From: Candidatus Woesearchaeota archaeon
Lineage (GTDB): Archaea; Nanobdellota; Nanobdellia; Woesearchaeales; JABGUJ01
Direction: 5' to 3'
Length of the DNA: 64,000 nt
NCBI GenBank assembly: GCA_018646625.1
Contig: JABGUJ010000001.1
Span: 193,534 to 257,533 of the forward strand
Positions 31,696-63,679 of the stretch are shown piece by piece. Under the pieces are notes generated by a model that worked only from the letters and a program-made list of their open reading frames with translations, ran no database searches and was not told the origin of the DNA. The position numbers and the translations under genes were made by a program. Each line of letters begins with the position of its first letter. Within the stretch, counting starts at the first letter, position 1.

Positions 31696-31696
31696 C

Positions 31697-46231: not shown

Positions 46232-47269
46232 TTAGTTTCCAATAATAAAGATATTATTTCTACCAACCATCAAAGCACTCTCAGGAATCCTCAACTCATT
46301 ATCTCCTTCATCTATTGCGCCCTGATACACGATTTTATTGTTAACTTCAAGAATGATCTCACCTTTCGCCTCTTCAGCTTCAAATGTCATAAGCAAATCT
46401 CTCATATCGGCCTTACCTAAAACAACATCAAACCCTTTCCTTCTTTGAATCTGAATATCTCCCGCATCATCTATCTTAATTTTTTTAGTAAAAGCATTCA
46501 ACAAAACTCTATTAATGTTCTGCCTTAGTTCATCAACATCATCAACATTAGTTACAACATATATACTATCTACAAAATACTGTTTATCTATTGTATCAAA
46601 TACTAAAGTATTAACCCCTGTTTTAAGATAGGTTTTCGTCAAGTATACAGCATTCTTTTCTTGACATTTAGGAATAAACCCATTCTCTCTTCTACCATTA
46701 ACAATCAAGAACAAAGGATTCACATCAGATTGAGAACACTCAGGTAAAAACTCAACCAACACATTATCGCCACTACTAATATCTGGAGTAGTCAAATAAA
46801 AATCATTATGCTTAACTTGTCCTTCCAGATCACCAATAGCTTTAGAAATCTCAATTTCTCTTAAATCAAACTCAAAATTCTTAGGAGCTGGAACTTGATC
46901 CACAACCACAACATTATTCTCAACAACTTCTTCCTCTTCAACCTCTTCAGAAACAGGCACTGGAGGAATCTCTGGTTCAACAATTGGATCTTCATGTAAA
47001 ACTTCTTCATACACTACAACTTCATTCTCCTTTACCAACTCAGGTTCAGAAATCGCTTCAACATCATCTTCAACTATTTCTATTGCAACTTCATCTTGAA
47101 AATCGCAGAAACCATTAACATCTTCATCTAAACAACATTCATCATCAGTATAATCAATATATGGTGCTTCGCACCCAATATCTGTTGTACAAGATGTTAA
47201 TAAAATAACCAAAGCAAAAAGAGCCATCAAACTAACAAGGCCTTTACAAAAACCGCAAGAACTACTCAT
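46232..47269 (-). CDS. Lipoprotein with acidic linker and beta-rich C-terminal part
   Basis: 345 aa. Signal with lipobox LVILLTSC (Cys27); the mature start has a DECCLDEDVNGFCDFQDE motif, then an E/V/P-rich linker (about 60-125), and a beta-rich ectodomain to the end (VEFLPECSQSDVNPLFLIVN, and GEIILEVNNKIVYQGAIDEG). It overlaps the RPA gene by 8 bp, so the two are coupled, but a functional link is not apparent. Confidence 0.7.
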   Translation of the reverse strand: MSSSCGFCKGLVSLMALFALVILLTSCTTDIGCEAPYIDYTDDECCLDEDVNGFCDFQDEVAIEIVEDDVEAISEPELVKENEVVVYEEVLHEDPIVEPEIPPVPVSEEVEEEEVVENNVVVVDQVPAPKNFEFDLREIEISKAIGDLEGQVKHNDFYLTTPDISSGDNVLVEFLPECSQSDVNPLFLIVNGRRENGFIPKCQEKNAVYLTKTYLKTGVNTLVFDTIDKQYFVDSIYVVTNVDDVDELRQNINRVLLNAFTKKIKIDDAGDIQIQRRKGFDVVLGKADMRDLLMTFEAEEAKGEIILEVNNKIVYQGAIDEGDNELRIPESALMVGRNNIFIIGN

Positions 47270-48314
47270 TACTCTCCCCCTCTAACTCCATAATACTTGG
47301 AACTTCTTGCTTAGAAACTCCCATCGCCTCCATCTCCTTAATTGGATCAGGATTTGCATCAATCTCAAAAACATTAAACTCTAACCTGTCAAACATTTGG
47401 TTCTTCTTAACAGCGCCACCTACTTTGACAATTTTACCCAGCACAGACTGTTTCAACTCTTCCAATTTCTCAGAATCTTCTCTCATGCCCTGCACTGCCT
47501 CATCCTCTTTGCCCAACAAACTTTGCACTTGATTTGCCCAGAAAACAGCCCTAATAGCATCAGAACCATCATCTAAAAAAGCATTCAACACATAAGAATA
47601 ATATGGCTTAACAGTTCCATGCTCATCACAAACAAAACTATCCTCTCCTCTTTGCCTAACTCTCTTTTTACAATCAGGACACATCTCAAAGAATCTAACG
47701 TCAAATGTTTGTACAATAGTCGCCAGTAACTCAACTCTAGACATTCCTTCAGAAAGATCAACAATCTTTGTTCTAGTAACTGCGGCTTTAACTGCTTGAG
47801 TCTTAACCTCTCCGACTTCTTCCCCTTCTGGATTAACTATTAACTCAGATTTATCATTCAAATGCAGTTCAGCACGACCATTATTATCTTTAACATAAGC
47901 ACCTACGACTTTAACCGTATCGCCTTCTTTAACAGATGAAACATTATCAGTCTGATCACCCCAAAGAGTAACTCTCATAGAAGCAGTATCATCTGCAACC
48001 CATAGTGAAGCAACCTTACCAGTCGCACCATCTTTTCTAGTAAATTCTTTAACAGGATATATAGTTTGAACCTTACCAACCATCTCAACGGCTCTCATCC
48101 CTGCTAGAATATTTGTAATCTTTAATCTGCCAGTGGTTTGATCAAATAGTTTAATGCCTAAATCATTAGCAATTATATGTGCAGCACCTTCCTCAGAAAT
48201 CAATCCAGCCAACTCATCAAGTTTGGCTCTTATTCTTCCCCTAATTTCTTCTTCTGAAACACCAGAAGCATCTTTTAACTTTTCAATTATTTTCTCAACA
48301 GGCATGCGTATCAT
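47262..48314 (-). CDS. RPA-like single-stranded DNA-binding protein
   Basis: 350 aa. OB folds at about 78-165 (KVASLWVADDTASMRVTLWG) and 190-300, the second with a zinc finger CPDCKK...CDEH; a helical N-terminal part (MPVEKIIEKLKDASG) precedes them. It resembles archaeal RPA/RpaA proteins that coat ssDNA during replication and repair. A GGGGGG run 8 nt upstream of M1 is the ribosome site; M4 is an alternative start. Confidence 0.92.
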   Translation of the reverse strand: MIRMPVEKIIEKLKDASGVSEEEIRGRIRAKLDELAGLISEEGAAHIIANDLGIKLFDQTTGRLKITNILAGMRAVEMVGKVQTIYPVKEFTRKDGATGKVASLWVADDTASMRVTLWGDQTDNVSSVKEGDTVKVVGAYVKDNNGRAELHLNDKSELIVNPEGEEVGEVKTQAVKAAVTRTKIVDLSEGMSRVELLATIVQTFDVRFFEMCPDCKKRVRQRGEDSFVCDEHGTVKPYYSYVLNAFLDDGSDAIRAVFWANQVQSLLGKEDEAVQGMREDSEKLEELKQSVLGKIVKVGGAVKKNQMFDRLEFNVFEIDANPDPIKEMEAMGVSKQEVPSIMELEGESNE

Positions 48315-48394: not shown

Positions 48395-51184
48395 CTACTC
48401 CATGTATTCGCTTGATTCAATATTTTCCAGAATATAATGGTCGCCTTGCTTAACTAAATCTCCCCGAATAGTGAGATGATTATTTTCTATAACTGGTTGC
48501 GGATTGTAATATGGATCAACTGCCAAATCATCAGATGTTTTATCTGTCAAAACAAACATGAATGGGACAGAATCATACCTAGGAAGCCATTGCCCAGTAT
48601 CGGGATGCTGTAAATACAAATCAGGAAGTCTTGCTTTTAGATCAAACTCAGGAGTTTTAACTTCTCTTCCCGAAACAGAAGAAGTAACATCCATAGAACC
48701 AAACGCAATTCCCGCTTTATTCAAATCACCATAATCATTAGCAAAAACCGAAGAGACTTCTTTATCCAAATAATACATCCTCAAAACTAAAGGCTCTTGG
48801 ATATCAGCAGGCAAACCATCTTCATTCTCATACACACCATCACTACCTTTTTCTCTCTTACCACCCAAAGAAGTATAATTATCCTGCAAATCAAATTCAA
48901 TAGTATACTTTCCACCAGAATAACTTAAATTAAACTTACTCATCTTTCCAGGAGACAACAAATCTCTAACCGGATAATTATCTAGCATTGACTCATTAAC
49001 TTCATACAATGTTTGATCCTTGACGTAATCTCCATCCTCGCTCACTGCAACCACGTAGAAATCATAAATACTGCCCGGATTTAATCCACTCAAGTATAAA
49101 TACATTTTATCATCACCAAAAGATCTTATAGTCAAATTATGTTTTAATTCAAAGAAAGGTGTGGCGGAAGTACCACCCACAAAAACTAAATTAGCGAGAG
49201 CATCTAAACCGTTGATATCAAAACCATAAGTTACATTGTCAGGATCATACTCAATATCCTCGCGAGAAAAATGCGTCATCAACATAGAATCATCAATTTT
49301 AACAGTAAAATAAGGTGCCTGGTTTAAGTCCACAGAACCACCAAACGCATACACATAATAATATTTAACTTTCTCCTCTTTTGATTGATTCCAATATAAC
49401 AAAACTTCCGAATCTGTATGATTAAACTGCACAACATTTAGTTCCTTAATTGGTGCAGGAGGCTTACCTTTCAAAGCAATAGCAAAATTATATGTTACAG
49501 ATAACTCTTCAACAACCCCGCCAATAAAATAAGGTAGTTTTTTCTCTTTATTCCAAACACAAATCCCATATGTTCTATCAGGATCAAAACCTCTCACCAA
49601 ATCAGATGCAGTTTTATCTCTACATTCGCCTTTCTCCCAATAACACTCTAAACCGCAATTAGAATTACAAGCAATATCAGTAGGATTATCAGAACATTTA
49701 GGGTTAGGAGGACACGTACCACATCTAGAAAAAGACTTCCTGTCTGTAAAGAATGCGACCGTATAATAGGGAGTACAGCCCAGCTTACAAGGATCCATTG
49801 CACAATATCTCTCATTCACATAATTCGAACAATCTTTGGGAAGCGAAGAACATTTTTTACATTCTCCATACTCGCCAGAAACAAAATAAGAAACATGCAG
49901 TTCTTCGCCAGCTTTTGTATTCTTCTTCAAACATTCTTTCTCAGAAATTCCATTTTTAGGAACATCTCCCAAAGCAGGAGTACACTTTGAACCAAACCAC
50001 TCGCAATTGAGACTTCCTCCGCACTTATCATTTGCATAATAACAAGTCTGTCTAGTTCTCAAATCACTACAAGACAAAACATCACACGAACCACAATCGT
50101 CATATACTAAATCCAGCGTATAGGTAGGCACCATGCGCCTCGCCAGAACACACATACGCTCACTTTCAGTAAAAACATCACAATAATTAAGATTTGCTTC
50201 AAAAGGATCTTCAAAAAATTCAGTCAGCGCCTTTTTCACACAATCAGAATCCGCGTTTGTCGGATCTTCGCATTTTTGAATAACCTTTAGAACATATTCA
50301 GATATCTTTTTGTAGTCATCTAAAGAATAATTAACTCTAGTAACGAAAGAAGGCATAAATCTATACTTGCCTAGAAGTTTATTAATATAGCCTGCTTGTG
50401 CTTGCGAACCTGCTGAATCACCAAACTCATAACGTTGCTTGCACGCACCATAAACACCACAAATTTTGGATACATATCTATACAGAGAATCCTTTTCAGG
50501 ATTTGCAGGATCAAAATCCTTATGACCTGGAATTTTTTTTATGCAAGAAAGTAATGGCTGAGCAACACCATTAACAACACAATGCTTTTTTATTCTTCCG
50601 CCACCCTGATTATAGGCTGCAATCGCCAACTCAGGGTAACCATCAAATGATATAAGTAAAGATGAAATAAACTGAGCAGAAGCATCAAATGCTTTCTCAG
50701 GATTAAAACGATCATCCACCGCCATTGCTTCTTGCAAAGTCATATCTTTAACTTTAGCTACCAAACGATCTGCATACTCTTTATTGCAACCAAAACAGTT
50801 TTTTTTATAATCCGGATTTGAATTAAGAAAAGCATGATCTTGGCACTTAGCATAATTTTTATCTTCAAAAACCTTAAGACCATATTGTTTTGCAGTTCCC
50901 GGCATGAATTGTACTATTCCAGCAGCACCACAACCTTCGGAAACGGCAACTGCATGAAAATTAGATTCAGTAAATGCAAACCCCTCAATTAATTTAGGAG
51001 GAATACTGTGCTTTAATGCGGAAACCGCGATCATATTATCAACCTGCACCTTAGAAATTGGATGAATAACTAAATGACCTGTAACTTTATTAGTAGAAAC
51101 ATCTAGACCAACCGCCAGACTAGAAAATATAAGAATTAGAACAGTTAACAAATATATCATATTCATTAGGTGTTTTTTCTCCAT
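48395..51184 (-). CDS. Large surface protein with SLT (lytic transglycosylase) domain
   Basis: 929 aa. Signal/anchor helix at 8-26; SLT domain at about 45-220 with catalytic Glu73 (FAFTESNFHAV), GIVQFMPGTAKQYG (89-102) and AYNQG (190-194). A Cys-rich region follows (about 300-540, many CxxC/CC pairs), then a fibronectin-III-like part (about 580-720, EVLLYWNQSKEEKVKYYYVY). The family cleaves peptidoglycan glycan strands, which archaea lack. It is the last gene of the surface cluster, two bases after the preceding gene. Confidence 0.8.
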   Translation of the reverse strand: MEKKHLMNMIYLLTVLILIFSSLAVGLDVSTNKVTGHLVIHPISKVQVDNMIAVSALKHSIPPKLIEGFAFTESNFHAVAVSEGCGAAGIVQFMPGTAKQYGLKVFEDKNYAKCQDHAFLNSNPDYKKNCFGCNKEYADRLVAKVKDMTLQEAMAVDDRFNPEKAFDASAQFISSLLISFDGYPELAIAAYNQGGGRIKKHCVVNGVAQPLLSCIKKIPGHKDFDPANPEKDSLYRYVSKICGVYGACKQRYEFGDSAGSQAQAGYINKLLGKYRFMPSFVTRVNYSLDDYKKISEYVLKVIQKCEDPTNADSDCVKKALTEFFEDPFEANLNYCDVFTESERMCVLARRMVPTYTLDLVYDDCGSCDVLSCSDLRTRQTCYYANDKCGGSLNCEWFGSKCTPALGDVPKNGISEKECLKKNTKAGEELHVSYFVSGEYGECKKCSSLPKDCSNYVNERYCAMDPCKLGCTPYYTVAFFTDRKSFSRCGTCPPNPKCSDNPTDIACNSNCGLECYWEKGECRDKTASDLVRGFDPDRTYGICVWNKEKKLPYFIGGVVEELSVTYNFAIALKGKPPAPIKELNVVQFNHTDSEVLLYWNQSKEEKVKYYYVYAFGGSVDLNQAPYFTVKIDDSMLMTHFSREDIEYDPDNVTYGFDINGLDALANLVFVGGTSATPFFELKHNLTIRSFGDDKMYLYLSGLNPGSIYDFYVVAVSEDGDYVKDQTLYEVNESMLDNYPVRDLLSPGKMSKFNLSYSGGKYTIEFDLQDNYTSLGGKREKGSDGVYENEDGLPADIQEPLVLRMYYLDKEVSSVFANDYGDLNKAGIAFGSMDVTSSVSGREVKTPEFDLKARLPDLYLQHPDTGQWLPRYDSVPFMFVLTDKTSDDLAVDPYYNPQPVIENNHLTIRGDLVKQGDHYILENIESSEYME

Positions 51185-51185
51185 T

Positions 51186-51989
51186 CTACTTCTTTATCCT
51201 CTTCAAAACATATCTTATATCTGAGGGTTTATAACCTTTTTTAACCAGATATTGTAAAATTCGATCATTATCGTACCTATATCGCTTAAGATTCGCAACC
51301 TCTTTTCTGATTAAATTAAGCATACCTTCATCCTTAGATGATGTAAAATGAACCACTAAAATAACAAAGATAATTACAAACACAAATATTATAGGAAACA
51401 ACGCAACATCTAATAACTCAAGTATCTCATCATCAGAACTATCGTCCAAACTATAATCTGAAGGATAATAAGAGTAGTTCTCACCAACCACATCATCACT
51501 TACTGTTTTCTCCAAATCAGGCATAACTTTCTCAATTTCATCTCTTCTTTTTTCTTGAAGATCCGCCTCAACAGGTTGCACAACACAGCTACCGTTCATA
51601 CAACAATAACTACTCGCATCATCAGTATAAATCCACTTACCCGTACAATGTTGAAAAATGTCACAAATCTCCCCACCCAATTCTCTACAAAACGTATTGA
51701 AAGTTATATTGATCAAAGGTTCTTCACCCTCCAATAAAGTGCCATTGTAAAAAGTTTCATAATCTGCCTCATACATACATCCAAGAACATCAACGCAACA
51801 ATAACCACCATCAAATTCCACTTCGAGCCCATCACATACGGAAACCTCATCACAGATCTCGCCATAAACTTCATCATTAGCAATAAAGACCGGACCACAA
51901 GGAACGTTCTCTGCAAATACAAATAAAGATAAAACTAAAGAAAACAAACAACCACAAACCAAAATAATGTACCATTTCATATTAATCAA
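51186..51989 (-). CDS. Cys-rich single-pass partner protein, module 3
   Basis: 267 aa (M1 or M4 start). Signal peptide, two Cys-rich ectodomain repeats (CGPVFIANDEVYGEICD...YCC...GCM; FCRELGGEICDIFQHC...YCC...GSC), one transmembrane helix (about 193-215), then a cytoplasmic tail with the GY-motif (ILQYLVKKGYKPSDIRYVLK). It is a paralog of the 259-aa protein at 53750 and lies just downstream of the 593-aa papain-fold-like protein, as that one does with its own enzyme. Confidence 0.72.
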   Translation of the reverse strand: MINMKWYIILVCGCLFSLVLSLFVFAENVPCGPVFIANDEVYGEICDEVSVCDGLEVEFDGGYCCVDVLGCMYEADYETFYNGTLLEGEEPLINITFNTFCRELGGEICDIFQHCTGKWIYTDDASSYCCMNGSCVVQPVEADLQEKRRDEIEKVMPDLEKTVSDDVVGENYSYYPSDYSLDDSSDDEILELLDVALFPIIFVFVIIFVILVVHFTSSKDEGMLNLIRKEVANLKRYRYDNDRILQYLVKKGYKPSDIRYVLKRIKK

Positions 51990-53763
51990 ATAAACTCATC
52001 CGACAGTCTTCACTGGTAGGATCATCTAAACACACACATTCCGGCTCATAAGGATAGTCATTGCAAAACTCATAAAGACCAATATCGTCGGAGTCATCAA
52101 ATTCCTCAAATAACGATTTATAAGACACGCCAGAGTTTCTGGTATTCATAGAATCACCTCTTGCCTCTCCCGCGGCAACACATGCAGGTATAACTCTATA
52201 AACATATTTCCAAGAATCTCCTTTAACTAGTTTTGCACGCCCAGATTGACTACAATAATACCTAGTATCAATATATTTTGGAAAAGTCCCTTTACAAATA
52301 GCGTCTTCCTTATTCATACACCCATAATCTAACGCACGAAATGATGTATTCTTTTTATTTACGGGAGTGCCAACAATATTGATGTGAGATGTACCCCCAT
52401 AACAAGGCCCGGCCTTACCACTATAACACTTCCCAAAACATCTCTTTTTAACACATTGCTTTCCTTTACAAACAGGATTATCGGCAGGCATCGCTCTACA
52501 CTTCGCCCTACAAGCATAACAAGCAGATGACTCGGTGCATTTTCCTTTAGCATTTGAATTTGTCCCAGCAACATCATTTGGACCGCTAAACTTCACACCA
52601 GGTGCCACATAATAAACAATATCGCCTGGCAACAAATTATTGGTTTTAAACTGAGCATTCTTATAACTTAATGAAGGATGATTCCAAGAATTAAGCTTGA
52701 TCCAGCGATATTCTGTAGCTAATGAATTAGGATCTCGAGTATACATCTGCGACACAACTTTGCCTCTTCTTTTTTTCTCCTTAAGGCCAAGAGGCCAATT
52801 AACTCTCAACCCATATTTTTTTTCAGCTACAAAGAAAACATTCCAAACATATGTACCGCAACACATTCCTCCCCCTTTGGTTTTGGGATCTGTGAAAGAA
52901 TTGGCCGCAATACCCAAAGTACAACCCGCATAATCGATCCCACAACAAGAGGTTTTACTACAAGATCCAAACGAAGAAATGCCATCATCCAGATTGTGTT
53001 TTAATTTAAGATCATCAGGAATCGCATCAAATTGATCATAACCCTCACAATCAGGATCACAAATATCTGGCCAATAATTATCTTTAGCATACCAATCATA
53101 ATTCCATCCTGCACGAGCAATATCGGCTGCAGCAATCTCAAGCTTCTTTACTTCCTTAATACATTCCTCAAGATAAGCAGGATACAACTCAGCATCACCA
53201 ACTCCACCGTCGCCAGTACCCAACACAACATCAAAAGGCATATCTGCACTCATCACATCTAATTCAATTGAATCTTTCGCATTACCTTTAATAGATAAAA
53301 TCTCAGACGTCTCTTGCTGAACTCCAATATAATAATTATTTTGCTGAAAAACCGCTGCAGGATAACTCTCAAGATATTGATTCAGATGTAAATTTACAAA
53401 AGGAGTTAACTCAGAATCCAATGCAACCGGAAATGCATGCTCCCCCGCATCATACCACACCGGCAAACCCGAATAAAGGCCTAATGGAGATCCCTCGACA
53501 TATCCTCCGTTTTCTGCTAAATCAGATAAGGCATTATATGCCGCAAACTCTGCAGCCAGATCAAGATAAAATAAATGTGTATCTGCCCTCACAGCACCAA
53601 CTTGAGCTCGCAAAGCATCACTACCAATAATATAATCTTCACCCTGTATGGTACTTATCTTTGACGCTTTCATCAACAAAACATAAGCAGTAGACAAAGC
53701 TAAGATTGTTAGCACCACTACCGCCAACATAAAATATATTGTTCCTTTCTTATTTCTTAACAT
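51982..53763 (-). CDS. Signal-anchored papain-fold-like protein, module 3
   Basis: 593 aa from ATG 53763 (longer starts overlap the upstream gene too far). N-terminal RNKKGTIYFMLAVVVL followed by TILALSTAYVLL is a pilin-like anchor. The outside part has GMCCGTYVWNVF (Cys301/302), LLPGDIVYYV (PGD at 379), TSHINIVG (His460) and a later Asp (about 479), the order and spacing of an NlpC/P60 or CHAP papain fold. Cys-rich insertions lie between. Family enzymes cut peptide or amide bonds in cell-wall peptides. It is a paralog of the 522-aa protein at 54530. Confidence 0.65.
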   Translation of the reverse strand: MLRNKKGTIYFMLAVVVLTILALSTAYVLLMKASKISTIQGEDYIIGSDALRAQVGAVRADTHLFYLDLAAEFAAYNALSDLAENGGYVEGSPLGLYSGLPVWYDAGEHAFPVALDSELTPFVNLHLNQYLESYPAAVFQQNNYYIGVQQETSEILSIKGNAKDSIELDVMSADMPFDVVLGTGDGGVGDAELYPAYLEECIKEVKKLEIAAADIARAGWNYDWYAKDNYWPDICDPDCEGYDQFDAIPDDLKLKHNLDDGISSFGSCSKTSCCGIDYAGCTLGIAANSFTDPKTKGGGMCCGTYVWNVFFVAEKKYGLRVNWPLGLKEKKRRGKVVSQMYTRDPNSLATEYRWIKLNSWNHPSLSYKNAQFKTNNLLPGDIVYYVAPGVKFSGPNDVAGTNSNAKGKCTESSACYACRAKCRAMPADNPVCKGKQCVKKRCFGKCYSGKAGPCYGGTSHINIVGTPVNKKNTSFRALDYGCMNKEDAICKGTFPKYIDTRYYCSQSGRAKLVKGDSWKYVYRVIPACVAAGEARGDSMNTRNSGVSYKSLFEEFDDSDDIGLYEFCNDYPYEPECVCLDDPTSEDCRMSLFD

Positions 53764-54529
53764 CTTTACCAAGCACCTTATCAACATGTTTAGGATGATG
53801 ACCTTCTTTAAGTAAATAATATCTAACATGATGATGAGGATAACCTAATTTTTTCAAATGATGCGCGCGTTCTCGAACAATGTTTAATTTTCTAGAATCA
53901 CCATTAAAAAATAAAAATAGAGCTAACAAAATAAAAACTGTCAAGAACAAAAACACAACTGGATAAACTAAAATCTGCCAAACAGTATCAAATCTGGATT
54001 TAGAAACATCCGAATCATTTATAGAAACTCTAAAATCAAAATACTCTTTTTCAGAGTCTTCTTCGAGATCAACAGTTTCCTCTTTATCCAGATCATACAT
54101 AACTGCATCAAACTCATCAGAATAAGTATCAATGCAACTACCATTCAGACAACATAATCCTCCCGAATCATCAGTATAAATCCACTCACCACTACACTCT
54201 TGAAACACGGTACAAATCTCACCACCCTCCTCTCTACAAAAAGAATCATATAATTGAATTTCTTCATCAACACCATCATTAATGAACCTAACATTAAGGT
54301 AATTATCAAAATCTAATTCAGTCATACATCCAGGGGGGGAGAAACAACAATAATCTTCACCAATCCACGCACCGTCTCCAACACAAACCTCACTATCATC
54401 ACACAGTTCACCAAACTCATCAGCACCATCAATAATTATAGGACCGCATTGAAGAGTGTCTGCAATAACTTGCAAAGACAAAAGTAATAAAATAACAGAA
54501 CAGAACAAAAAAAAAGTTGATCTTTTCAT
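53750..54529 (-). CDS. Cys-rich single-pass partner protein, module 2
   Basis: 259 aa. Signal peptide, two ectodomain repeats (CGPIIIDGADEFGELCD...YCC...GCM and FCREEGGEICTVFQEC...LCC...GSC), one membrane helix (about 190-213), and a basic tail with the GY-type unit (LKKLGYPHHHVRYYLLKEGH). The ectodomain is clearly a paralog of the 267-aa protein. The start is adjacent to the upstream enzyme's stop. Confidence 0.72.
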   Translation of the reverse strand: MKRSTFFLFCSVILLLLSLQVIADTLQCGPIIIDGADEFGELCDDSEVCVGDGAWIGEDYCCFSPPGCMTELDFDNYLNVRFINDGVDEEIQLYDSFCREEGGEICTVFQECSGEWIYTDDSGGLCCLNGSCIDTYSDEFDAVMYDLDKEETVDLEEDSEKEYFDFRVSINDSDVSKSRFDTVWQILVYPVVFLFLTVFILLALFLFFNGDSRKLNIVRERAHHLKKLGYPHHHVRYYLLKEGHHPKHVDKVLGKDVKK

Positions 54530-56098
54530 TTATGCCAAAGTCACCCCTTTGTTATATACTCTGTCACCCTCAAGATCCGCCAAACCAGCTTTAGTAGCAG
54601 AAATACATTCTGGAATGTTCCTTACAGTGTAAATCCAAGTTTCACCCGCTTTAATTGGGGGGGCAGGATTCTCAAAAATCAAAGGATCTTCTCTACCCTT
54701 ACAATACTCATGCTCCTCGAGAAATTTAGGATAATGCCACTTACCCCACTTACAATAACCGTTTGGATGATTCTTACAAGAAATATCTAAAATATGAAAT
54801 GAATCGCCTTTAGCTGTTGGCAGACCAACAATATTAATATGAGAAGAACCACCTAAACACATCTTAGTCTTATCGGGAAGTTTTTTATTCTGACATTTTT
54901 TATAACAAGAGGCCCTCTTTTTTTTCTGGGCCTTCCTCTGTTTCTCAGTTCCCTCATCTGGAAAACTATTCCAACAATCATCATAACAAGCAATACAAAC
55001 TTTTTTCTCAGGACATTTTCCTTTTGGATTCATATTCATCCGCTTTTCTGGTTTATAACCATGAAACTTGAAGTATATTAAATCGCCAGGCATTATCTGA
55101 TCTGGTTTGAAATTTCCAACAGTATAATATGCATCTCTTTGATTCCAGTGATCCATGTTTATCTTCAAAAACTCAGTTTTAACATTTTTTGCAAAAGGAT
55201 CATATGTTCTCCTGTGTTTACCATCCCTAGATGGAGCATCTGCAGTCCAGTCAACCTTCAGACCATATTTATTAATTGCAACATCGAAAACAGTCCAAAC
55301 ATAAGCACCACAACAACCACCAGGACAAGGAGATCCTGGAATACCAACACAGCAATGAGAATCATCAATTGAACAACAAGTATTAGCAGAAGTAGGATTA
55401 CAAACATCATTGACAGGGGGAGCTTTCTTACAATCACCTATTTTATTCAAATCCAACGCTGCCTGCTCTAACTTCGCCACCTCTCGTAAACAAGGTTGCA
55501 ATTCAGGAGGAACTTTACTCCAATCCACTTCTATGTTAACAAGAGGACCTGTACCAAATATAGCATTACCAGGTACGTCAGAACTCATAACCTGTATCTC
55601 AACAGGCTCCTTTGCGTTACCTTTAACAGAAACAAAACCACCCTCATCCTGTTCAACACCCATATTGTAATTATCTAACTTAAATTCCATTGCCGGATAA
55701 TTTTTCAAATATTTATCTAAATGTAAATTCATAAAAGGCCCTAACTCGGCATCAACCGCAGTTGGAAAACCGGTTTCTCCTTTGTAATACCAAAGAGGTA
55801 AACCATTTACAAAACCCAACGGAGCAGAAGTAATAAATCCCCCATTTTTTGCCAGATCAGATAAAGCATTATGTGCAGCAAACTTAGCAGCCAGATCAAG
55901 ATAAAACAAATGAGAATCTGCTTTAACGGCGCCAGTCTGTATTCTCAATGCATCACTTCCAATCACATAATCTTGACCTTGAATATCATATATCTGAATA
56001 GAATTTTTCAATAAAACATAAGCAGTCGACAGAGCTAAGATTGTTAACACTACTACCGCCAACATAAAATATATTGTTCCCTTCTTACCCCTAATCAT
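54530..56098 (-). CDS. Signal-anchored papain-fold-like protein, module 2
   Basis: 522 aa. Anchor IRGKKGTIYFMLAVVVLTIL, then an ectodomain with GCCGAYVWTVF (Cys262/263), IMPGDLIYFKF (337-339), SSHINIVG (His420) and LDIS (Asp438), matching its 593-aa paralog at each catalytic-like position. A basic Cys-rich insertion (about 360-415) separates the PGD and His motifs. The enzyme could cleave peptides or amides on the cell surface. The ATG overlaps the upstream 278-aa gene by 4 bp. Confidence 0.65.
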   Translation of the reverse strand: MIRGKKGTIYFMLAVVVLTILALSTAYVLLKNSIQIYDIQGQDYVIGSDALRIQTGAVKADSHLFYLDLAAKFAAHNALSDLAKNGGFITSAPLGFVNGLPLWYYKGETGFPTAVDAELGPFMNLHLDKYLKNYPAMEFKLDNYNMGVEQDEGGFVSVKGNAKEPVEIQVMSSDVPGNAIFGTGPLVNIEVDWSKVPPELQPCLREVAKLEQAALDLNKIGDCKKAPPVNDVCNPTSANTCCSIDDSHCCVGIPGSPCPGGCCGAYVWTVFDVAINKYGLKVDWTADAPSRDGKHRRTYDPFAKNVKTEFLKINMDHWNQRDAYYTVGNFKPDQIMPGDLIYFKFHGYKPEKRMNMNPKGKCPEKKVCIACYDDCWNSFPDEGTEKQRKAQKKKRASCYKKCQNKKLPDKTKMCLGGSSHINIVGLPTAKGDSFHILDISCKNHPNGYCKWGKWHYPKFLEEHEYCKGREDPLIFENPAPPIKAGETWIYTVRNIPECISATKAGLADLEGDRVYNKGVTLA

Positions 56099-56931
56099 TT
56101 GTTCAAACGAGATAACGCACCGTCTATATACCTATTTTTGAATCCTTCTTTACGCAGATAATCTTTAATCTGCGAATCAGTATACTTGTACTTTCTAAGA
56201 TACTCGGCTCTTTGAGTAACAATAACTAATTCATGAGTATCTAAATGAACATATTCGTAGATTAATACCGCAATAAAAATACAAACTACAAAAGTCATCA
56301 AAAATATTTTCCAATCTACTTCTGGTTCAGAATCTCGCAAATAAACGGGATCAATACCAAGATCATATTCTATATCTAATGGATCAACATTTTGAACAAA
56401 CTTCTCTTCAACAAAACAATCCTCATCACCATATTTACAGTTAGGATCGCACACGCCATCTTTAGCTAAATCACAAAAACCATCATCTGTGCCTGATTTA
56501 CAGTCCTCGCAAACAAGATAAGTCTCGGCATTCTCACACATAAGATCAAAACAACCCTCACAAACTCCGTTATGATTACAGAAAGAAAGATCATGTTCAA
56601 ACTGCGGATTGGTATCTTTAAAAACTCTCATCTTAACAGAATCTTGAGGTAATCTATCAAAACGAAAAAAGGTTTTTGTCTTACTCATTGGAACAGAATA
56701 TAGCTCGGTGTTGTTATTATCAAAAAAAGACAAAGTCAAGTTATCCGAGGATTCCATATCCTCTAAAAGAAAACTAAGATAATCCTCAGTATCTGGGACG
56801 ACATAAACTTCCTCCAACACCAAGCCAAACTCATCATTAAAAAAGAATACAGAGTAAAGCTCTCCCGAGAAAGCAAAAGCTGATGAAATCAAAAGCAAAA
56901 ACAAAATCACCCATAATAATACTCTTTTCAT
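56095..56931 (-). CDS. Cys-rich single-pass partner protein, module 1
   Basis: 278 aa from ATG 56931, overlapping the upstream stop by one base; a longer frame reaches into that gene and is not credible. Signal peptide (MKRVLLWVILFLLLISSAFA), a beta-rich part, then a Cys region (CNHNGVCEGCFDLMCENAET and further pairs, DPNCKYGDEDC), one membrane helix (about 218-238) and a cytoplasmic GY-type unit (YLRKYKYTDSQIKDYLRKEG). It has the same layout as partners 2 and 3 but a different ectodomain. Confidence 0.72.
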   Translation of the reverse strand: MKRVLLWVILFLLLISSAFAFSGELYSVFFFNDEFGLVLEEVYVVPDTEDYLSFLLEDMESSDNLTLSFFDNNNTELYSVPMSKTKTFFRFDRLPQDSVKMRVFKDTNPQFEHDLSFCNHNGVCEGCFDLMCENAETYLVCEDCKSGTDDGFCDLAKDGVCDPNCKYGDEDCFVEEKFVQNVDPLDIEYDLGIDPVYLRDSEPEVDWKIFLMTFVVCIFIAVLIYEYVHLDTHELVIVTQRAEYLRKYKYTDSQIKDYLRKEGFKNRYIDGALSRLNK

Positions 56932-58316
56932 CAAACCACCACATACTCCGAAACCGCAGTACCAATATAATTTGGAGATAAAACGGTCCTTATTCCCTGC
57001 ACACGACAACCAACACCTGGATCATGCACTAGAATATACCCTTCTGTACTCACTCCAGTAACAATCATAAAATGACCTGGAGTACGCTTACTAGAATACC
57101 GCTCTAACGGAAAAGTCTTCCCCTCTTCCCTTATCAGAACTATAACAGACCTACCGTCTGCAAACGAACTTACAATATCTGCATGAGAAATAACCGAACT
57201 TACCTTTGAATCAGCGATTCCAAAACTATTTGCAACATTTTTTATTCTACTGGACGATCCTCCTCCCCGCCCACTACCATCAATAGTATAAACTCTTTGA
57301 TCATTAGATCCACAAAACAACTGTTCAGATAAAGAAACACTATCCTTCTCAAAATTAGACAATGCCATCCTCATGGCCGCAACAGCACACGCAGATTTAC
57401 AATAACTCTCACCTACAGAAGAACCAGAAGGCCTTTCAGGATTTGGAACTTGATCGTGCCAACAGTCATCTCCGGCCGGACCCATATCAGCCGCACAACA
57501 TTGCCTAACCACGCCAATCTTCTCATTATACTTTGTCCCAATAGGACATTTAGCTTGACAGCACCGTGTACCAGAATTCACACACACATCATACTCACCA
57601 GGATATATGGTTGCTAAATATTGCTTATTCTCGCGACAATAACTACACATAACAGTATCGGGAACATCTTTGATACTCGCAGCTAAATTCAGACTTTCCA
57701 AATCAATGGTAATCCCCCCACTCGAATCTATGCCTCCCGCGCCAGTTGACTGGGGCTTGTCCTTAAAATCAATCCAAGAAAAACGAAAAGTCACATGAAC
57801 GGGCGTAGTAGGATCCATCTGAGGAAGATAATACTCATAATCAAAACTTTTTCTTGGAAGATTTGTAATTATAGCACGAAAATGAGCAGGAGATATTGTT
57901 TTTCCACTAGCAATATTTTCCTCATTCTTATACTCCAAGACTTCTCGATCATCAATAGCGATTGTAAAAGTAGCCAAAGCATGACGACGATCCGGAGACA
58001 ATCCAAAGAAATTATTGGCAAGATACTCATACTCCTTTACTACATCACCATCGACTCTTAACTTAACATCAGCCATTGCTTCAGCAACAGTTATGTAGCC
58101 TTTTTGCGTTGTGAAAATGGGAGACTTAAGAAATGAAGCAGTAGACATGTAGGAATAAGAATCAACAAAAGACTGTGATGCTGCGTTACTCGGATCATCT
58201 GGACCACTATATTTGAATATTAACATAAACACAACGATAACCATCACAAATAAGATAACGGCAAATATATCTAATGCGGCTGCAGAAATCGCACCGGCCC
58301 TACCTAACCTATTCAT
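56931..58316 (-). CDS. Signal-anchored C39/papain-fold-like protein, module 1
   Basis: 461 aa. Anchor at about 12-35 (AAALDIFAVILFVMVIVVFM), an ectodomain with CC pairs (CVNSGTRCCQAKC, RQCCAAD), then a C39-like peptidase domain (about 295-461): CKSACAVAAMRMAL (likely nucleophile Cys310), GHFMIVTG (His415) and ILVHDPG (Asp432). C39 enzymes cut after double-Gly leaders or act as cysteine proteases. The stop overlaps the partner start by one base. Confidence 0.7.
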   Translation of the reverse strand: MNRLGRAGAISAAALDIFAVILFVMVIVVFMLIFKYSGPDDPSNAASQSFVDSYSYMSTASFLKSPIFTTQKGYITVAEAMADVKLRVDGDVVKEYEYLANNFFGLSPDRRHALATFTIAIDDREVLEYKNEENIASGKTISPAHFRAIITNLPRKSFDYEYYLPQMDPTTPVHVTFRFSWIDFKDKPQSTGAGGIDSSGGITIDLESLNLAASIKDVPDTVMCSYCRENKQYLATIYPGEYDVCVNSGTRCCQAKCPIGTKYNEKIGVVRQCCAADMGPAGDDCWHDQVPNPERPSGSSVGESYCKSACAVAAMRMALSNFEKDSVSLSEQLFCGSNDQRVYTIDGSGRGGGSSSRIKNVANSFGIADSKVSSVISHADIVSSFADGRSVIVLIREEGKTFPLERYSSKRTPGHFMIVTGVSTEGYILVHDPGVGCRVQGIRTVLSPNYIGTAVSEYVVV

Positions 58317-58836
58317 TAGGCAACACCACCGTTATATTTAATTTGGCAGGAATATCTACACCCTGTTCTCTATAAATCACATTAAAAAATCGTTCAATCT
58401 TTGCAGCACCACCCTCTTTCTTAGCACCCGTATCGGCTCTAAAAGCCCAACGATCATACCACACAGGATTATACATCAAAGTTTTAACAGCACCAGGAGC
58501 ATATGGTTTCTTCATTGGCGCAATAACAAACTTTGCAGCAATATATTTATTCTCGTCACCATAATTCATCCCTCTATTAAGATGAGAAACACTAAATCTA
58601 TTAGCATCTATCACTCCAGTCACAACTCGATTAAGAGTAGAATCATAATAACACAAACCACCTGGCGATTGCAAAACTCGATTAATGAAAAGAGTTGCTT
58701 CCAGCTCTTGCGTTTTAACATCTTTAATCGCATAAACTTTTATTAAAAGGACAATAGATGTAACTACGAGTATAAGGTAGATAATTCTCAATATCCACAT
58801 CATGTAGACAAACGTTTGACCTTTTTTACCTAGCAT
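58309..58836 (-). CDS. Signal-anchored protein of unknown function (175 aa)
   Basis: N-terminal MLGKKGQTFVYMMWILRIIY and a hydrophobic stretch to residue 35, then a mixed alpha/beta ectodomain without Cys clusters (one Cys, in GLCYYDSTL). The anchor is like those of the neighbouring pilin-like proteins. It overlaps the start of the 461-aa gene by 8 bp. No family is recognised. Confidence 0.6.
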   Translation of the reverse strand: MLGKKGQTFVYMMWILRIIYLILVVTSIVLLIKVYAIKDVKTQELEATLFINRVLQSPGGLCYYDSTLNRVVTGVIDANRFSVSHLNRGMNYGDENKYIAAKFVIAPMKKPYAPGAVKTLMYNPVWYDRWAFRADTGAKKEGGAAKIERFFNVIYREQGVDIPAKLNITVVLPNE

Positions 58837-58842
58837 TTAGTC

Positions 58843-60240
58843 TCACTTACCTTTACAACAAATATTATCTCCAACACACATTATTTTACTCTTAAGTTGA
58901 TCTTGTAAATCATCAGAACATTCTGTTTCAACACGACAAAAGAAGTTATCAGATTCAGAACCATCGTTGCCGTTGTTTTCAGATTCACAAAGAGTGACCT
59001 TTTGCAAACAGCAGAAAGAATTCTCATCTGCGCATTTAAAATTGGGATCTAATCCACCAAATGCATCACATCCTAACAACGGAGGTGTAGGTGCAACACC
59101 TCGACCTAAAGACAAAGATTTACACCTTTCAACTTCACAAACAGGTTTAGGCAATTCTGCAGTTCCCTCTGTAAAGAACTTTTCTATGCCCCCATAAATC
59201 GCTGGAGCTAACTTATTTACATTAATAGTAATACTATTAGTCTCATCATAATAAACAACAATCGCAACACTCACTGCCTCGGCCCTATCCCAAATAGAAA
59301 TTAATTTATCTGACGTCTCTTGAGTTGCAAAACCTAAAGGAGGCTTTGCATGTATAGGATGTACCTTAAAATCAAAACCAACATCGAGAAAGTTTACAGA
59401 TTCTTCCAGTAAATTATTAGATAGAGATTTTGCAAGCCTGCTAGCCATCAATGTAATTTTAGGAGTTTTACCAGAATGATAAATCTCAATTCTGGGATCG
59501 GCACTTGTCTCAACAAAGGATAATCCAATATAAGGAGCATTAATACTTATTTGCTGAGCACAATCTTTTGAACAATCATAAAAAAAGATGTTGCTTGTTG
59601 CACTCTTGGACTGAAACTGTGAATATAAATCTAAGAAAAGCAAATACTCCTTACTGATCTGCACATTTGGCGAAGTACTTTTCAAAAATAAAGGAGTTAA
59701 CATCATATTATACATCGCAAGCAACGAGATCTCGGGATCTTGCTCATCAGTGGGTGTTAGATAAGGAACATACTGTATCGATTTCTGAATTTCCATTAAA
59801 GGTGCCAGCACCCCAACAGTAACTTGATTGCCTTGTTTAGAAAAAGAAATTGGTTGTTTAAAATCCCTATCAACTAAAGACAATGGATTAATAGAAAGGT
59901 CGTGAGGATATCTATAAACATACTTATAATCATCTAAATCCTTGTACATCATAACTTTAGGAGAGAAAATACTAAGCGTTAATGGAATTTCTTTTCCGGC
60001 AGGAGAATAATAAAAATCAATATCGCCAGGCAATCCTTCTACCGCTTCTAAAGTATAAGCCAAATCCCTTGCAAAAAATCTTTTATGATAAGCTAAATCA
60101 CTTGACTCATAAACAACATAATTAAAAATAGCCGAACCTACCGCAACAACAAGAAAAAGCTCCATAATTACTAACCATAATTCATCAGTAACTCCAGCTT
60201 TCTTACTAGAGAAAATCATCAGTCTACCCCTTTTTCCCAT
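58843..60240 (-). CDS. Signal-anchored protein with Cys-rich tail (465 aa)
   Basis: Anchor MIFSSKKAGVTDELWLVIME and on (from M8, or M1 at 60240), a beta-rich body of about 330 residues, and a C-terminal Cys region with CVGDNICCKGK and FCCLQKVTLC pairs like those of the small pilin-like proteins. Twin TATA boxes upstream fit either ATG. No enzyme motif is found. It may be a structural or scaffold part of the surface complex. Confidence 0.6.
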   Translation of the reverse strand: MGKRGRLMIFSSKKAGVTDELWLVIMELFLVVAVGSAIFNYVVYESSDLAYHKRFFARDLAYTLEAVEGLPGDIDFYYSPAGKEIPLTLSIFSPKVMMYKDLDDYKYVYRYPHDLSINPLSLVDRDFKQPISFSKQGNQVTVGVLAPLMEIQKSIQYVPYLTPTDEQDPEISLLAMYNMMLTPLFLKSTSPNVQISKEYLLFLDLYSQFQSKSATSNIFFYDCSKDCAQQISINAPYIGLSFVETSADPRIEIYHSGKTPKITLMASRLAKSLSNNLLEESVNFLDVGFDFKVHPIHAKPPLGFATQETSDKLISIWDRAEAVSVAIVVYYDETNSITINVNKLAPAIYGGIEKFFTEGTAELPKPVCEVERCKSLSLGRGVAPTPPLLGCDAFGGLDPNFKCADENSFCCLQKVTLCESENNGNDGSESDNFFCRVETECSDDLQDQLKSKIMCVGDNICCKGK

Positions 60241-60290: not shown

Positions 60291-62420
60291 CTAAGAAGCC
60301 GCAGGCGCCAATCCTTCACAACCTAACAAATCATAAAGCTTTTTTGTATCCTCAAAATGATCAGGATCTAAAGCTAATTTCTGAAGATAACTACAACCAT
60401 TATTGTACCAACTTAAATCAGAATAAGAAACAAGTCCTGGCTTAAGAAGAAAATTAATAAAAGCTAGCTGCTGCAGAGCATAACTCTTGTAATCAGATGC
60501 TCCATAAGGCACCTCTAAAAGAAAATCATTCAATTCGGATATTGATTTATCAACAATTTCGAGAGATGGTAAATTTCCTGGAGTCTTGGGACCCCACTGA
60601 AGCAACTCAAAATAAAGAAAAGTTCTAGCATACTTTTGCCACCCAATAATATAATTAGGATCACCCGAAGGAGGAATCAGCATTTTGTTTAGACTATCTA
60701 AAGTTGTTCCCTGACTAAATGAGTGTATCTCATCTACGGAAGGAATGTACAAATTAGAATAAACCAAGCCAACATCTCCAACTAATTTGACGCATTCTGG
60801 CACTGGCTCATTATTATTTCGAGGAACAGAATGTCTCATAGCATGGATCATAATCTCATAGTTAATGGGATTATTAGTTTCAGGATCAACAAACCCTACG
60901 GAACTCTGGACAAGTTTTGCATACTCATTACACCTAATCTTTGGCCATTCATATGCAATGGCACCTTGAGATAACACCAGAAGTTGTACTTTCTTAAAGC
61001 TTAACAGTACAGAAAGCTCATCTAACCCCAGTTTTTGTGCTTTATCAATTCCTTTCGTAATAGGTGCCAAGAAACCAGTTGCATCTTCAGATACAAAATA
61101 AGAGCTATATATGCCGGTAATATTTCCATAAATAGATCTCTTATATTTTAATTTCATCGCATCACTACCAAATGCGTCATCTATTAATTTAACAAAGACA
61201 GGATCACTAAGTAGTTTAAAATACTCATCAACCGCCTTTTCGCGATCATTTAACAGTTTATAGTGTGCTCTTGCAATTGCTTCTTGTGCACGAAGTGCAT
61301 CTCTATCATACAAGATATCGCCTTTGAATTTCTCAGGATTATCAATAAACTCCCTTAATTTTTCGATCGCATCTAAACGCTCCTGAGTAGTATAACTTAT
61401 TTGATTTAGAACATCCTTATACTTAAGAACAGGATTATCAAAAGCAACTTGCAACACAATCTCTGCACGTCTCAACCAATACCAAGGATACATCTGGTCT
61501 TCTAAAATGGAAGTCTTCCCCTGAGCCTTCTGCTCCTCATAAGTTTCAAGATATAAGTTAACTATATTCAATATTCTATCCAACAATTCTTTCTTTTTAG
61601 ACTCTAAAACTGCCCCAGCCAACTCAGCTTTTAACTCGACGAATTTACCATTAAGTGACTCTAAGTTAGGATTATCGATTTCTTTTATTCTCTTTTGTAT
61701 GTGAGGTAATCCCGCCCTTTCAATTAAAACAAGAGTATTACCATCAGGATGTCTGTAAGTTTCCACGTAAAGATCTCTGGCCTCAAAATTATTACCATTA
61801 ATGAAAAGACGCTCATAATAGTTGTCCGGCAACTGATCAATTTCAACATCTGTAACATAGCCCAACATAATCTTTTCATCTCCCGCAAGAACCTCTGAAG
61901 CACTCTTTGAAAAAGACCTCACAAATGTTTTTTCACCAAGTTTATGGCATTCATAAACATCTTGATCGAGTTTCTTTTTATCATACTTAACAGCCTTTAT
62001 ACCAGGATTAGCCCATTTAATTAAACAAACACAGGCCTGCCCTCCAATACAAGAAGTAGGTCGAGGCATATGGAGAAATCCTGTCGTATCATAAGCGGAG
62101 CCAATTTCAATCTTGACAAAAGAAATAGAAATTTCATCATCGAAAGGATCAAAACCAACCAAAGCCATTCCTTTACCAACAAAAAAAGGAATCTCGGTGT
62201 ATTCAAAGCCACCTTCATTTTTTGAATATAGGTTTTCAATAGTTCCTGTAAGACGCTGATAAGAATTAACAGTTCCTTGATCAACATCACTTGACGAGAA
62301 CAAACTACCAAACAAGTTATAACCAACATAAATAGCCAAGCCTAGAATGAACCCGAAAATCATCAAGTAAGCTAATTCGGTCCAGAGCTTACTAACACCT
62401 CTTTTTTTTGAAAAAAACAC
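60291..62420 (-). CDS. Large signal-anchored helical protein (709 aa)
   Basis: Anchor FSKKRGVSKLWTELAYLMIF then FGFILGLAIYVGYNLFG, followed by a long, mostly helical ectodomain with TPR-like stretches (LRAQEAIARAHYKLLNDREK, AVDEYFKLL). An early Cys pair GGQACVC is present. No catalytic motif was seen. Size and helix repeats suggest a scaffold for other surface proteins. The 5' neighbour is the run of five small pilin-like genes; a short gap with a promoter separates it from the 465-aa gene. Confidence 0.6.
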   Translation of the reverse strand: MFFSKKRGVSKLWTELAYLMIFGFILGLAIYVGYNLFGSLFSSSDVDQGTVNSYQRLTGTIENLYSKNEGGFEYTEIPFFVGKGMALVGFDPFDDEISISFVKIEIGSAYDTTGFLHMPRPTSCIGGQACVCLIKWANPGIKAVKYDKKKLDQDVYECHKLGEKTFVRSFSKSASEVLAGDEKIMLGYVTDVEIDQLPDNYYERLFINGNNFEARDLYVETYRHPDGNTLVLIERAGLPHIQKRIKEIDNPNLESLNGKFVELKAELAGAVLESKKKELLDRILNIVNLYLETYEEQKAQGKTSILEDQMYPWYWLRRAEIVLQVAFDNPVLKYKDVLNQISYTTQERLDAIEKLREFIDNPEKFKGDILYDRDALRAQEAIARAHYKLLNDREKAVDEYFKLLSDPVFVKLIDDAFGSDAMKLKYKRSIYGNITGIYSSYFVSEDATGFLAPITKGIDKAQKLGLDELSVLLSFKKVQLLVLSQGAIAYEWPKIRCNEYAKLVQSSVGFVDPETNNPINYEIMIHAMRHSVPRNNNEPVPECVKLVGDVGLVYSNLYIPSVDEIHSFSQGTTLDSLNKMLIPPSGDPNYIIGWQKYARTFLYFELLQWGPKTPGNLPSLEIVDKSISELNDFLLEVPYGASDYKSYALQQLAFINFLLKPGLVSYSDLSWYNNGCSYLQKLALDPDHFEDTKKLYDLLGCEGLAPAAS

Positions 62421-62432: not shown

Positions 62433-62711
62433 TTATGCACAAGGCGTATCTTGCACACCATCCTTTAATTTACCAACACAGCAATAAGCTGATCCGCCCT
62501 CTATTTTATTACAACTACCCATACATTGACCCTTCGTATCACAAACAGACTTGGACACACAGTGACCCACACAAGTAAATTTGCTACCAAAACTTTTATC
62601 CGCTCTTTCACTTGCATTAAAAAAGAAGAAAGCAATTATACCTAATGCTAGTAAACCTATTATAATCATCACCACGTAACTTGTTTCTACAGCACCTTTC
62701 TTAAACATCAT
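62433..62711 (-). CDS. Small Cys-rich pilin-like protein 5 (92 aa)
   Basis: From ATG 62711 (62708 is an alternative; an upstream frame overlaps the preceding gene). MFKKGAVETSYVVMIIIGLL then a hydrophobic helix, then eight Cys in the pattern CVGHC...CDTKGQC...SCNK...YCCVGK...C. The ribosome site AGGTG is in a leader repeated before the next-upstream gene. The KKG-AxE start resembles type IV prepilin signals. Confidence 0.65.
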   Translation of the reverse strand: MMFKKGAVETSYVVMIIIGLLALGIIAFFFFNASERADKSFGSKFTCVGHCVSKSVCDTKGQCMGSCNKIEGGSAYCCVGKLKDGVQDTPCA

Positions 62712-62721
62712 AAAACACCTC

Positions 62722-63057
62722 TTAACTACATGGGGATGGAATTCCAACCACTTTACCTGTACAACAATAAATTATCTTACCACTTGTCGTAGACGCCTTT
62801 CCTACAAACAAAGATTTGAATGAACCCCAAAGTCCGGATGATTCTTCAGGAGAAGGAAGCTGAATAGCATTACAGGTCCCCATACAATTAGCACAGTCAG
62901 AAATACACGAACCAGGACAATCTACTTTCGCACCTAGCTTGGCATTTGAGCCAGCACCCATATTAAATATAAAATAACCAACCAAAGCCAGCACCAACAA
63001 AGCAAGAATTACCATGACAACATAGTTCACTTCCATTGCTGCTTTCTTTGAATTCAT
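62722..63057 (-). CDS. Small Cys-rich pilin-like protein 4 (111 aa)
   Basis: MNSKKAAMEVNYVVMVILAL starts a signal-anchor helix; the ectodomain has eight Cys (CPGSC-x3-CxxC-x3-C ... YCCTGK ... C), the same spacing as protein 3 in the first five. The leader TAAAACACCTCTTAACTAC (plus strand) is identical before this gene and protein 5. Prepilin-like but not proven to be cleaved. Confidence 0.68.
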   Translation of the reverse strand: MNSKKAAMEVNYVVMVILALLVLALVGYFIFNMGAGSNAKLGAKVDCPGSCISDCANCMGTCNAIQLPSPEESSGLWGSFKSLFVGKASTTSGKIIYCCTGKVVGIPSPCS

Positions 63058-63077
63058 AATAAAACACCTCTTAACTA

Positions 63078-63368
63078 CTATGCCGACTTAGATTTACACT
63101 CTATTGGTTTCGCTTCACTGGCTGTTTTATCTATTATACCAACACAACAATATGTATTATCGGCCGCATTTTTTGGAGAAGTACATGCTCCTTGACACTG
63201 ATCACAATCAGAAACACAGAACCCCGTACAGGTCAATTTGTTACCTATCCTATCATTCGCATCTCCGCCCATTTTAAACACAAAATACAAAATAACTGCT
63301 AAAACTAATAAAGCAATAATTATCATAATAATATAATTGATCTCAAGCGCTCCTTTTTTAAATTTCAT
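63078..63368 (-). CDS. Small Cys-rich pilin-like protein 3 (96 aa)
   Basis: MKFKKGALEINYIIMIIIAL, helix to about residue 33, then CTGFC-x3-CDQC-x3-C ... YCCVG ... C, eight Cys. A GAGGT ribosome site precedes the ATG. Sequence and Cys spacing make it a paralog of proteins 4 and 5. Confidence 0.68.
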   Translation of the reverse strand: MKFKKGALEINYIIMIIIALLVLAVILYFVFKMGGDANDRIGNKLTCTGFCVSDCDQCQGACTSPKNAADNTYCCVGIIDKTASEAKPIECKSKSA

Positions 63369-63380
63369 AAAATCATACCT

Positions 63381-63677: not shown

Positions 63678-63679
63678 TT

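Follow-up and report, generated by a model that had tools for sequence, protein, structure and literature searches.

Polymorphic toxin systems combine a constant carrier with a swappable enzymatic domain. Here, we describe an archaeal locus with a related logic: a cluster of surface-protein genes in a 64,000-nucleotide stretch of DNA (the window) in which three tandem gene pairs each encode a membrane-anchored enzyme, or putative enzyme, followed by a single-pass cysteine-rich partner protein. Earlier work on archaea comes close to this locus in several respects. Castelle et al. 2021 (PMC8204110) reported fam00969, a family of large extracellular murein-like lytic transglycosylases in Woesearchaeota and Pacearchaeota, for which action on bacterial walls was proposed. 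Strock et al. 2025 (PMC12352652) reported that archaeal peptidoglycan hydrolases kill bacteria and that Nanoarchaeota are rich in such enzymes; their survey, which required a wall-binding domain, found them in about 5% of archaeal genomes, often patchily distributed and enriched on plasmids. Vigneron et al. 2022 (PMC9723730) read the GH23 transglycosylases of vampiristic Woesearchaeota as evidence of predation on bacteria. Finally, Makarova 2016 (PMC4858521) and 2019 (PMC6393860) cover archaeal type IV pili and the DPANN dark-matter islands of divergent pilins.

The window (G000:C2:193534-257533, where C2 is contig JABGUJ010000001.1) belongs to the 1.57-Mb genome of a Woesearchaeales-type archaeon. 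Throughout, L-numbers denote loci, C1 and C2 are contigs of the source genome, and modules 1 to 3 are the pairs formed by enzymes 1 to 3 (e1 to e3) and partners 1 to 3 (p1 to p3). From comparisons of sequence and gene order, we consider it rather probable that the three modules are a lineage-specific expansion of a surface apparatus, conserved in Woesearchaeales, that displays wall-cutting enzymes together with their partners.

Such an apparatus resembles fam00969 in its archaeal groups and in the extracellular SLT-type domains carried on large proteins. However, fam00969 is one transglycosylase family, whereas the locus described here brings together a pilin-like anchor, a fixed genomic location, at least eight interchangeable enzyme families, and a dedicated membrane partner family; the two are set apart by description, and the families may overlap. 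Unlike the hydrolases of Strock et al., the proteins studied here are membrane anchored and chromosomal, show conserved synteny, and carry no Pfam-recognized wall-binding domain. By Pfam, no window protein or scanned relative combines the catalytic and cell-wall-binding domains of the Strock definition and, because a wall-binding domain was required, that survey would miss most of these proteins. For the GH23 Woesearchaeota, neither a gene cluster, an anchor, nor a partner was described. The DPANN pilin islands share with this locus divergent pilin-like proteins in which a basic-Gly/Ala N-terminal signature precedes a hydrophobic helix; the sections available on them describe no hydrolase-carrying pilin-like subunit, and in the present genome the ATPase and platform genes are found away from the cluster. 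Polymorphic toxins are alike in combinatorial logic, but the exchanged domain here lies between constant N- and C-terminal halves and is not always C-terminal. Nor does the partner behave as their immunity genes do: most anchor loci lack a partner (see below), and the partner family is conserved instead of matching the type of enzyme. No immunity gene was seen, nor would one be needed. We found no description of the anchor slot, the partner family, or a carrier-plus-warhead logic on an archaeal pilin-like scaffold in the literature searched.

The six module genes, all on the minus strand like the other genes of the cluster given below, follow one another head to tail and are translationally coupled, overlapping or being separated by a few bases. 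Module 1 comprises enzyme 1 (56931..58316; 461 amino acids [aa], with a pilin-like N-terminal part and a C-terminal Cys-rich and C39-like module) and partner 1 (56095..56931; 278 aa). Enzyme 2 (54530..56098; 522 aa), made up of the anchor N-domain and an orphan Cys-rich C-terminal domain, is followed by partner 2 (53750..54529; 259 aa), and their respective paralogs, enzyme 3 (51982..53763; 593 aa) and partner 3 (51186..51980; 264 aa), form module 3. Three gene starts were corrected: partner 1 begins at ATG 56931, whose A is the final base of the enzyme 1 stop codon TGA; enzyme 3 begins at ATG 53763 (MLRNKKGT...), which creates a 14-bp overlap with partner 2; and partner 3 begins at ATG 51980. 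With these corrections, the repeated enzyme-then-partner arrangement first proposed in a sequence-only reading of the window is confirmed. The predicted topology of all six products also agrees with that reading, which had described a membrane-anchored enzyme followed by a single-pass Cys-rich partner with a short tail. Each enzyme has a single N-terminal hydrophobic helix; the partners all begin with a signal peptide, which is followed by a Cys-rich ectodomain, one membrane helix (residues 204 to 232 in partner 1), and a basic tail of ~45 aa.

The three pairs enlarge a conserved pilin-like operon, the last gene of which is RPA-like (47262..48314) and marks the 3′ end of the cluster in most sampled relatives. 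Across the order, the gene order is giant surface protein, pilin-like run, ortholog of the enzyme 1 N-terminal part, anchor, and RPA. The modules are additions to this core operon and are not self-standing. In the window, the core is represented upstream of enzyme 1 by three pilin-like core genes, pil58 (58309..58836; conserved, with homologs at the same place in relatives), pil59 (58843..60240; conserved), and pil60 (60291..62420), and by five small pilin-like genes (62433..63958), beyond which the cluster runs on past the window end into L004. This upstream continuation (L004/L005) is a long co-directional run reaching to about 275-295 kb on C2 and encodes pilin-like and giant Cys-rich surface proteins of 1362 aa, 1904 aa, and larger.

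In both enzymes 2 and 3, the anchor domain takes up the first ~170 residues (56098-55583 in enzyme 2). A contig scan with enzyme 2 alone returned no relative, and the N-domain proved widespread in a whole-genome search: a single sequence detected it in 58 of 117 relatives, and a profile recovered it from 258 of 292 genomes in the order and from 211 of 279 in a phylum sample. Named loci bearing the domain in a pattern scan with a closer alignment set (five loci) belong to Candidatus Woesearchaeota or Nanoarchaeota. On this basis, and with the relatives by kinship rank making up a single order, the group is taken to be Woesearchaeales. Outside the order, the anchors in the loci read are bare proteins of about 240 to 300 aa. 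A class III (pilin-type) signature, in which a basic residue plus Gly/Ala/Ser precedes the hydrophobic helix, is present in 60 of 73 anchors, compared to 3/31 partners and 3/24 C-domain proteins (see below), and is to be read as a sequence pattern and not as proof of cleavage. Two pilus ATPase/platform sets (T2SSE plus T2SSF genes) are encoded elsewhere in the source genome, at C2:437-440 kb and C1:478-480 kb.

Behind the N-domain comes a second conserved domain, the C-domain (YxVxPSF...), which adjoins it, is separated from it by an inserted enzyme, or is encoded by the following gene. Among 59 C-terminal parts of anchor proteins, Pfam recognized SLT (12 cases), M23 (12), M15 (5), VanY (5), M15_4 (2), 3D (2), and Phage_lysozyme2 (2), as well as M74, NLPC_P60, Amidase_2, CHAP, Metallophos, and TPM (one each). 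Enzymes by the anchor in other loci include M74, Amidase_3, GDSL, PGA_cap, and phosphodiester glycosidase, and a single polypeptide in L082 combines five (Metallophos, GDSL, M15, NlpC/P60, and M23). In genomes with a listed anchor, SLT and M23 domains fall within 5 kb of it in 28 of 100 and 33 of 99 cases, respectively; uniform placement would predict about 0.8 each, an enrichment of ~40-fold. The anchor carries swappable hydrolases, mostly peptidoglycan cutting, and the swapping itself is observed by comparison between loci. The only match to Mur_ligase_M in the source genome is FolC, as identified by sequence, and no other murein-ligase gene was found there; murein, if it is the substrate, is therefore that of other organisms. 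The argument for bacterial walls depends on the fact that folds unrelated to one another, but sharing one known substrate, have been recruited again and again; single-fold matches alone would be weak. Multienzyme surface proteins also adjoin the anchor in L102 (8829-12791), L082 (8769-13202), and L088 (8691-11660); their domains include GDSL esterases, metallophosphatase, M15, M23, NlpC/P60, Amidase_2, and an FGE-sulfatase-like domain. These enzyme sets suggest targets beyond murein, such as esterified or phosphorylated wall polymers.

The gene directly after partner 3 (48395..51184; 929 aa) encodes an SLT lytic transglycosylase fused to the C-domain. Its SLT match in Pfam is strong (E = 4.9e-17, 62 bits versus a cutoff of 21.3), its catalytic motifs (TESNF, GAAGIVQFMPGTA, and AYNQG) are present and align with gp16 transglycosylase, and it alone matched PHROGs, in phage tail and transglycosylase families. 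With the C-domain at residues 272-388 and 410-572, this protein is the C half of an ancestral N-hydrolase-C protein. Outside the cluster, a gene at 30877-31710 of the window encodes a predicted secreted lipoprotein-like product with a lysozyme-like pattern (YQESGC...TWKGGLMQVD...AYNRGYN); it resembles segments of the hydrolase arrays in L086 and L100 and is a putative second wall hydrolase.

The sequence-only reading had assigned a C39-like enzyme to module 1, and this assignment held: enzyme 1 matches C39_2 (PF13529) above the cutoff (E = 1.2e-8, 36 bits versus 24). In the matching domain (57018..57401; residues 306-433), the catalytic Cys, His, and Asp are intact, with the SAC, GHF, and HDP motifs aligning with both L100 copies (L100a/b) and recurring in L103 and L104. 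Enzyme 1 is a predicted C39 peptidase with an intact triad. Its N-terminal part is orthologous to a short conserved gene directly upstream of the anchor in relatives; for the profile of this part, first-round matches were relied on, and four iterations recruited unrelated pilin-like helices. To this part are added, at the C terminus, a Cys-rich region (CSYC...CCxxKCPxGT) and the C39-like peptidase. A CSYC-plus-C39 enzyme followed by a partner occurs in five cases, namely, the window, L100 (two), L103, and L104. The C39 domain is preceded by a membrane helix at the N terminus and by a Cys-rich domain of the secreted type and is therefore predicted by topology to lie outside the cell; a role as a bacteriocin-leader processor was rejected on this ground.

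As had been proposed, both members of module 2 have paralogs in module 3. Enzymes 2 and 3 share 48% identity overall, and their C-terminal parts align with a score of 431 versus 40.5 ± 6.4 for shuffled controls; partners 2 and 3 share 34% identity, with ectodomain scores of 302 versus 40.8 ± 7.2. The papain fold earlier proposed for these two enzymes was not confirmed. Their catalytic parts matched nothing in Pfam, PHROGs, or PDB sequences, and across the 292 genomes of the order the orphan domain found a single match, an 88-residue stretch in one genome. What speaks for the fold is a C-H-type order of motifs (a CCG(A/T)YVW helix start, a (M/L)PGD(L/I) turn, and SHINIVG) that follows that of NlpC/P60. 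The NLPC_P60 profile gave no match above the cutoff in enzymes 2 and 3 and none in the source genome, and hhalign against NlpC/P60 relatives returned a nonsignificant probability of 2%, the best segment being the Cys motif. An AlphaFold model of the enzyme 2 C-terminal domain from a two-sequence alignment had a mean predicted local distance difference test (pLDDT) value of 34. Because the profile score was not significant and the predicted fold had so low a pLDDT, a papain-like fold is suggested at the level of motifs only, and no assignment to NlpC/P60 was made.

Members of the partner family share a Cys-rich ectodomain, one membrane helix, and an optional cytoplasmic tail. We refer to the ectodomain type of partner 1 as P1 and to that of partners 2 and 3 as P2. 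The ectodomain of partner 1 had been described as different from the other two, and by direct comparison it is indeed unrelated to them (score of 36 versus 41.6 ± 7.6 for shuffles); its tail is homologous to theirs (75 versus 22.6 ± 4.3). In L083 and L068 (family f38), full partner homologs stand directly behind M74- and M15-bearing anchors and contain P1 and P2 Cys-rich modules in one ectodomain, followed by the membrane helix and tail. Because these two proteins hold P1 and P2 together, the window partners are two halves of one family.

A co-directional gene lies directly upstream of the partner gene in all 32 family members that were found, mostly with 4-bp overlaps, and this neighbor nearly always encodes a large secreted or anchored protein. 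The exceptions are L102 and L105, where a short open reading frame precedes the partner; in L102, that frame follows a 1320-aa multihydrolase gene. The order anchor-enzyme, partner, C-domain protein, and RPA recurs in L083, L095, L098, and L099, as well as in the window (e3, p3, SLT protein, RPA); in L068 it recurs with no RPA in view. Four loci (L071, L074, L105, and L106) encode a partner ectodomain fused to a downstream secreted protein, either the C-domain protein or another one, and these fusions provide Rosetta-stone evidence that the two work together. The invariable coupling and the ectodomain fusions in four genomes strengthen the earlier proposal that repeated pairing reflects a real association, with which the C39-partner pairs in L100 (twice), L103, and L104 also agree; L095 to L114 were picked because they bear partners and give no measure of how often C39 enzymes have one. 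On this comparative evidence, a physical association of enzyme and partner is likely and would be wider than the window alone indicated. Away from the anchor cluster, in L109 to L114, partner-type proteins with a P1 ectodomain, some of them tailed, immediately follow large surface proteins, and the family thus appears to serve other surface proteins too.

The sequence-only reading had further proposed that the partner links the external enzyme to the cytoplasm. This claim is weakened, since 12 of the 32 partners have no recognizable tail (20/32 have one) and since, among 60 loci chosen by the anchor alone, 53 are without a partner and 7 have one. Most of these loci carry hydrolases. The sequence-only reading had named homologous enzymes regularly lacking partners as a finding that would refute it, and this is largely what was found; the partnership is not obligate. 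Partners are more common at loci with split N and C halves (4/14) than at those with fused halves (1/37; Fisher P = 0.017, uncorrected for relatedness). N-terminal copies of the two-helix motif of the partner tail (GYSKEQVRAKLLKNGYGLKSIDEAL) are present in unrelated proteins encoded at 22632-23819 and 28981-29793 of the window, and the motif is a recurring cytoplasmic module of the source genome.

In the mechanism we propose, the core would be an operon that runs up to RPA and encodes single-pass, pilin-like proteins, one of which, the anchor (N-domain plus C-domain), would offer a slot for inserted or fused hydrolases, mostly peptidoglycan cutting. In the source genome, the anchor would have been split and duplicated, placing the N-domain in enzymes 2 and 3, together with an orphan Cys-rich, NlpC/P60-like putative catalytic domain, and the C-domain in the SLT protein; a neighboring core protein would have gained a C39 domain to become enzyme 1. 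The partner most likely binds the preceding enzyme, or the junction of N and C halves, extracellularly and would hold the assembly at the membrane. The resulting array of wall-cutting enzymes may be presented to a neighboring bacterium, whether for attachment, penetration, feeding, or killing. A more far-reaching version, in which an ancestral pilus-like machine found in most of the order uses its anchor to display interchangeable wall hydrolases held by partners for a contact-dependent wall breaching that would let wall-less archaea attach to bacteria, feed on them, or kill them, is tentative, and we regard it as possible rather than probable.

Several observations weigh against this interpretation. 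The cluster contains no pilus ATPase, and the predicted pilin identity of its proteins rests on an N-terminal signature. The AlphaFold model of the N-domain, built from a shallow seven-sequence alignment, reached a pLDDT of 63 and matched no known fold in the PDB at E ≤ 0.001. No wall-binding Pfam domain was detected in the window proteins or in the scanned relatives, and no significant match ties the orphan domain shared by enzymes 2 and 3 to any hydrolase. Finally, some anchors bear nonmurein enzymes (esterase-like, metallophosphatase, or TPM), many are bare, and the 53 partnerless loci count on the same side.

Other explanations concern what the enzymes cut and what the partners do. The enzymes might act on the archaeon itself, maturing or cross-linking its Cys-rich surface proteins and pilins, with their likeness to wall hydrolases being incidental. 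Cys-rich surface proteins are indeed their neighbors, C39/papain-like folds include proteases and transpeptidases, and enzyme 3 shows a weak transglutaminase-like match (E = 0.18). Nevertheless, we judge this explanation unlikely, for the slot is repeatedly filled by folds with peptidoglycan as substrate (SLT, M23, M15/VanY, M74, and Amidase_2/3), and maturation of the cell's own surface would not predict lysozyme-fold enzymes. Equally doubtful is a partner that acts as a transmembrane sensor, its ectodomain reading the bound enzyme or product and its helical tail relaying this to a factor in the cytoplasm. Such a role would fit the homology among the window's three tails and the retention of a tail in most family members, but four of the 12 members without a recognizable tail are fused to a second extracellular protein, the tail motif recurs in the unrelated proteins at 22632 and 28981, and no dedicated cytoplasmic partner gene was seen.

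The presence of one partner per enzyme, with partner diversification paralleling that of the enzymes, could point to an inhibitor or chaperone that, in the manner of an immunity protein, keeps the enzyme inactive until deployment. However, because its genome has no murein-ligase gene except FolC, the producer needs no immunity to murein hydrolysis; most anchored murein hydrolases are partnerless; and partners also stand behind large surface proteins that are not known enzymes (L110, L112, and L113). On these grounds, immunity was rejected as the main view, and we hold an inhibitor or chaperone role to be improbable. Least credible of all, and in our estimate very improbable, is operon hitchhiking, in which surface genes would pile up in a shared transcription unit although their products form no complexes. 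In its favor, the cluster is large and continues into L004 in a single direction, but partners lie directly behind a co-directional gene in every case, across many families and mostly with 4-bp overlaps, and four loci carry a fusion of the ectodomain to the protein downstream. We retain the displayed-enzyme apparatus as the favored explanation.

Elsewhere in the window, a GTPase gene and two radical-SAM genes stand in a row (41824-45504) and resemble those for the hydrogenase maturation factors HydF, HydE, and HydG. A small protein encoded at 41252-41737 contains two near-identical AKCG(I/V)KREPGYLYFLDKKGNV copies followed by a Lys/Ala-rich tail resembling histone H1. PADLOC defense-system models gave no match.

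It has long been asked how uncultured Woesearchaeales feed and whether they are hosted by archaea or by bacteria. The repeated refitting of the carrier in a conserved surface locus with bacterial-wall enzymes points to bacteria. The locus would give a predictor, genome by genome, of the type of wall attacked, and the soluble domains could be tested on purified peptidoglycan without cultivation of the archaeon. Taken together, these comparisons suggest that a carrier-plus-warhead logic may operate on a pilin-like scaffold in archaea.

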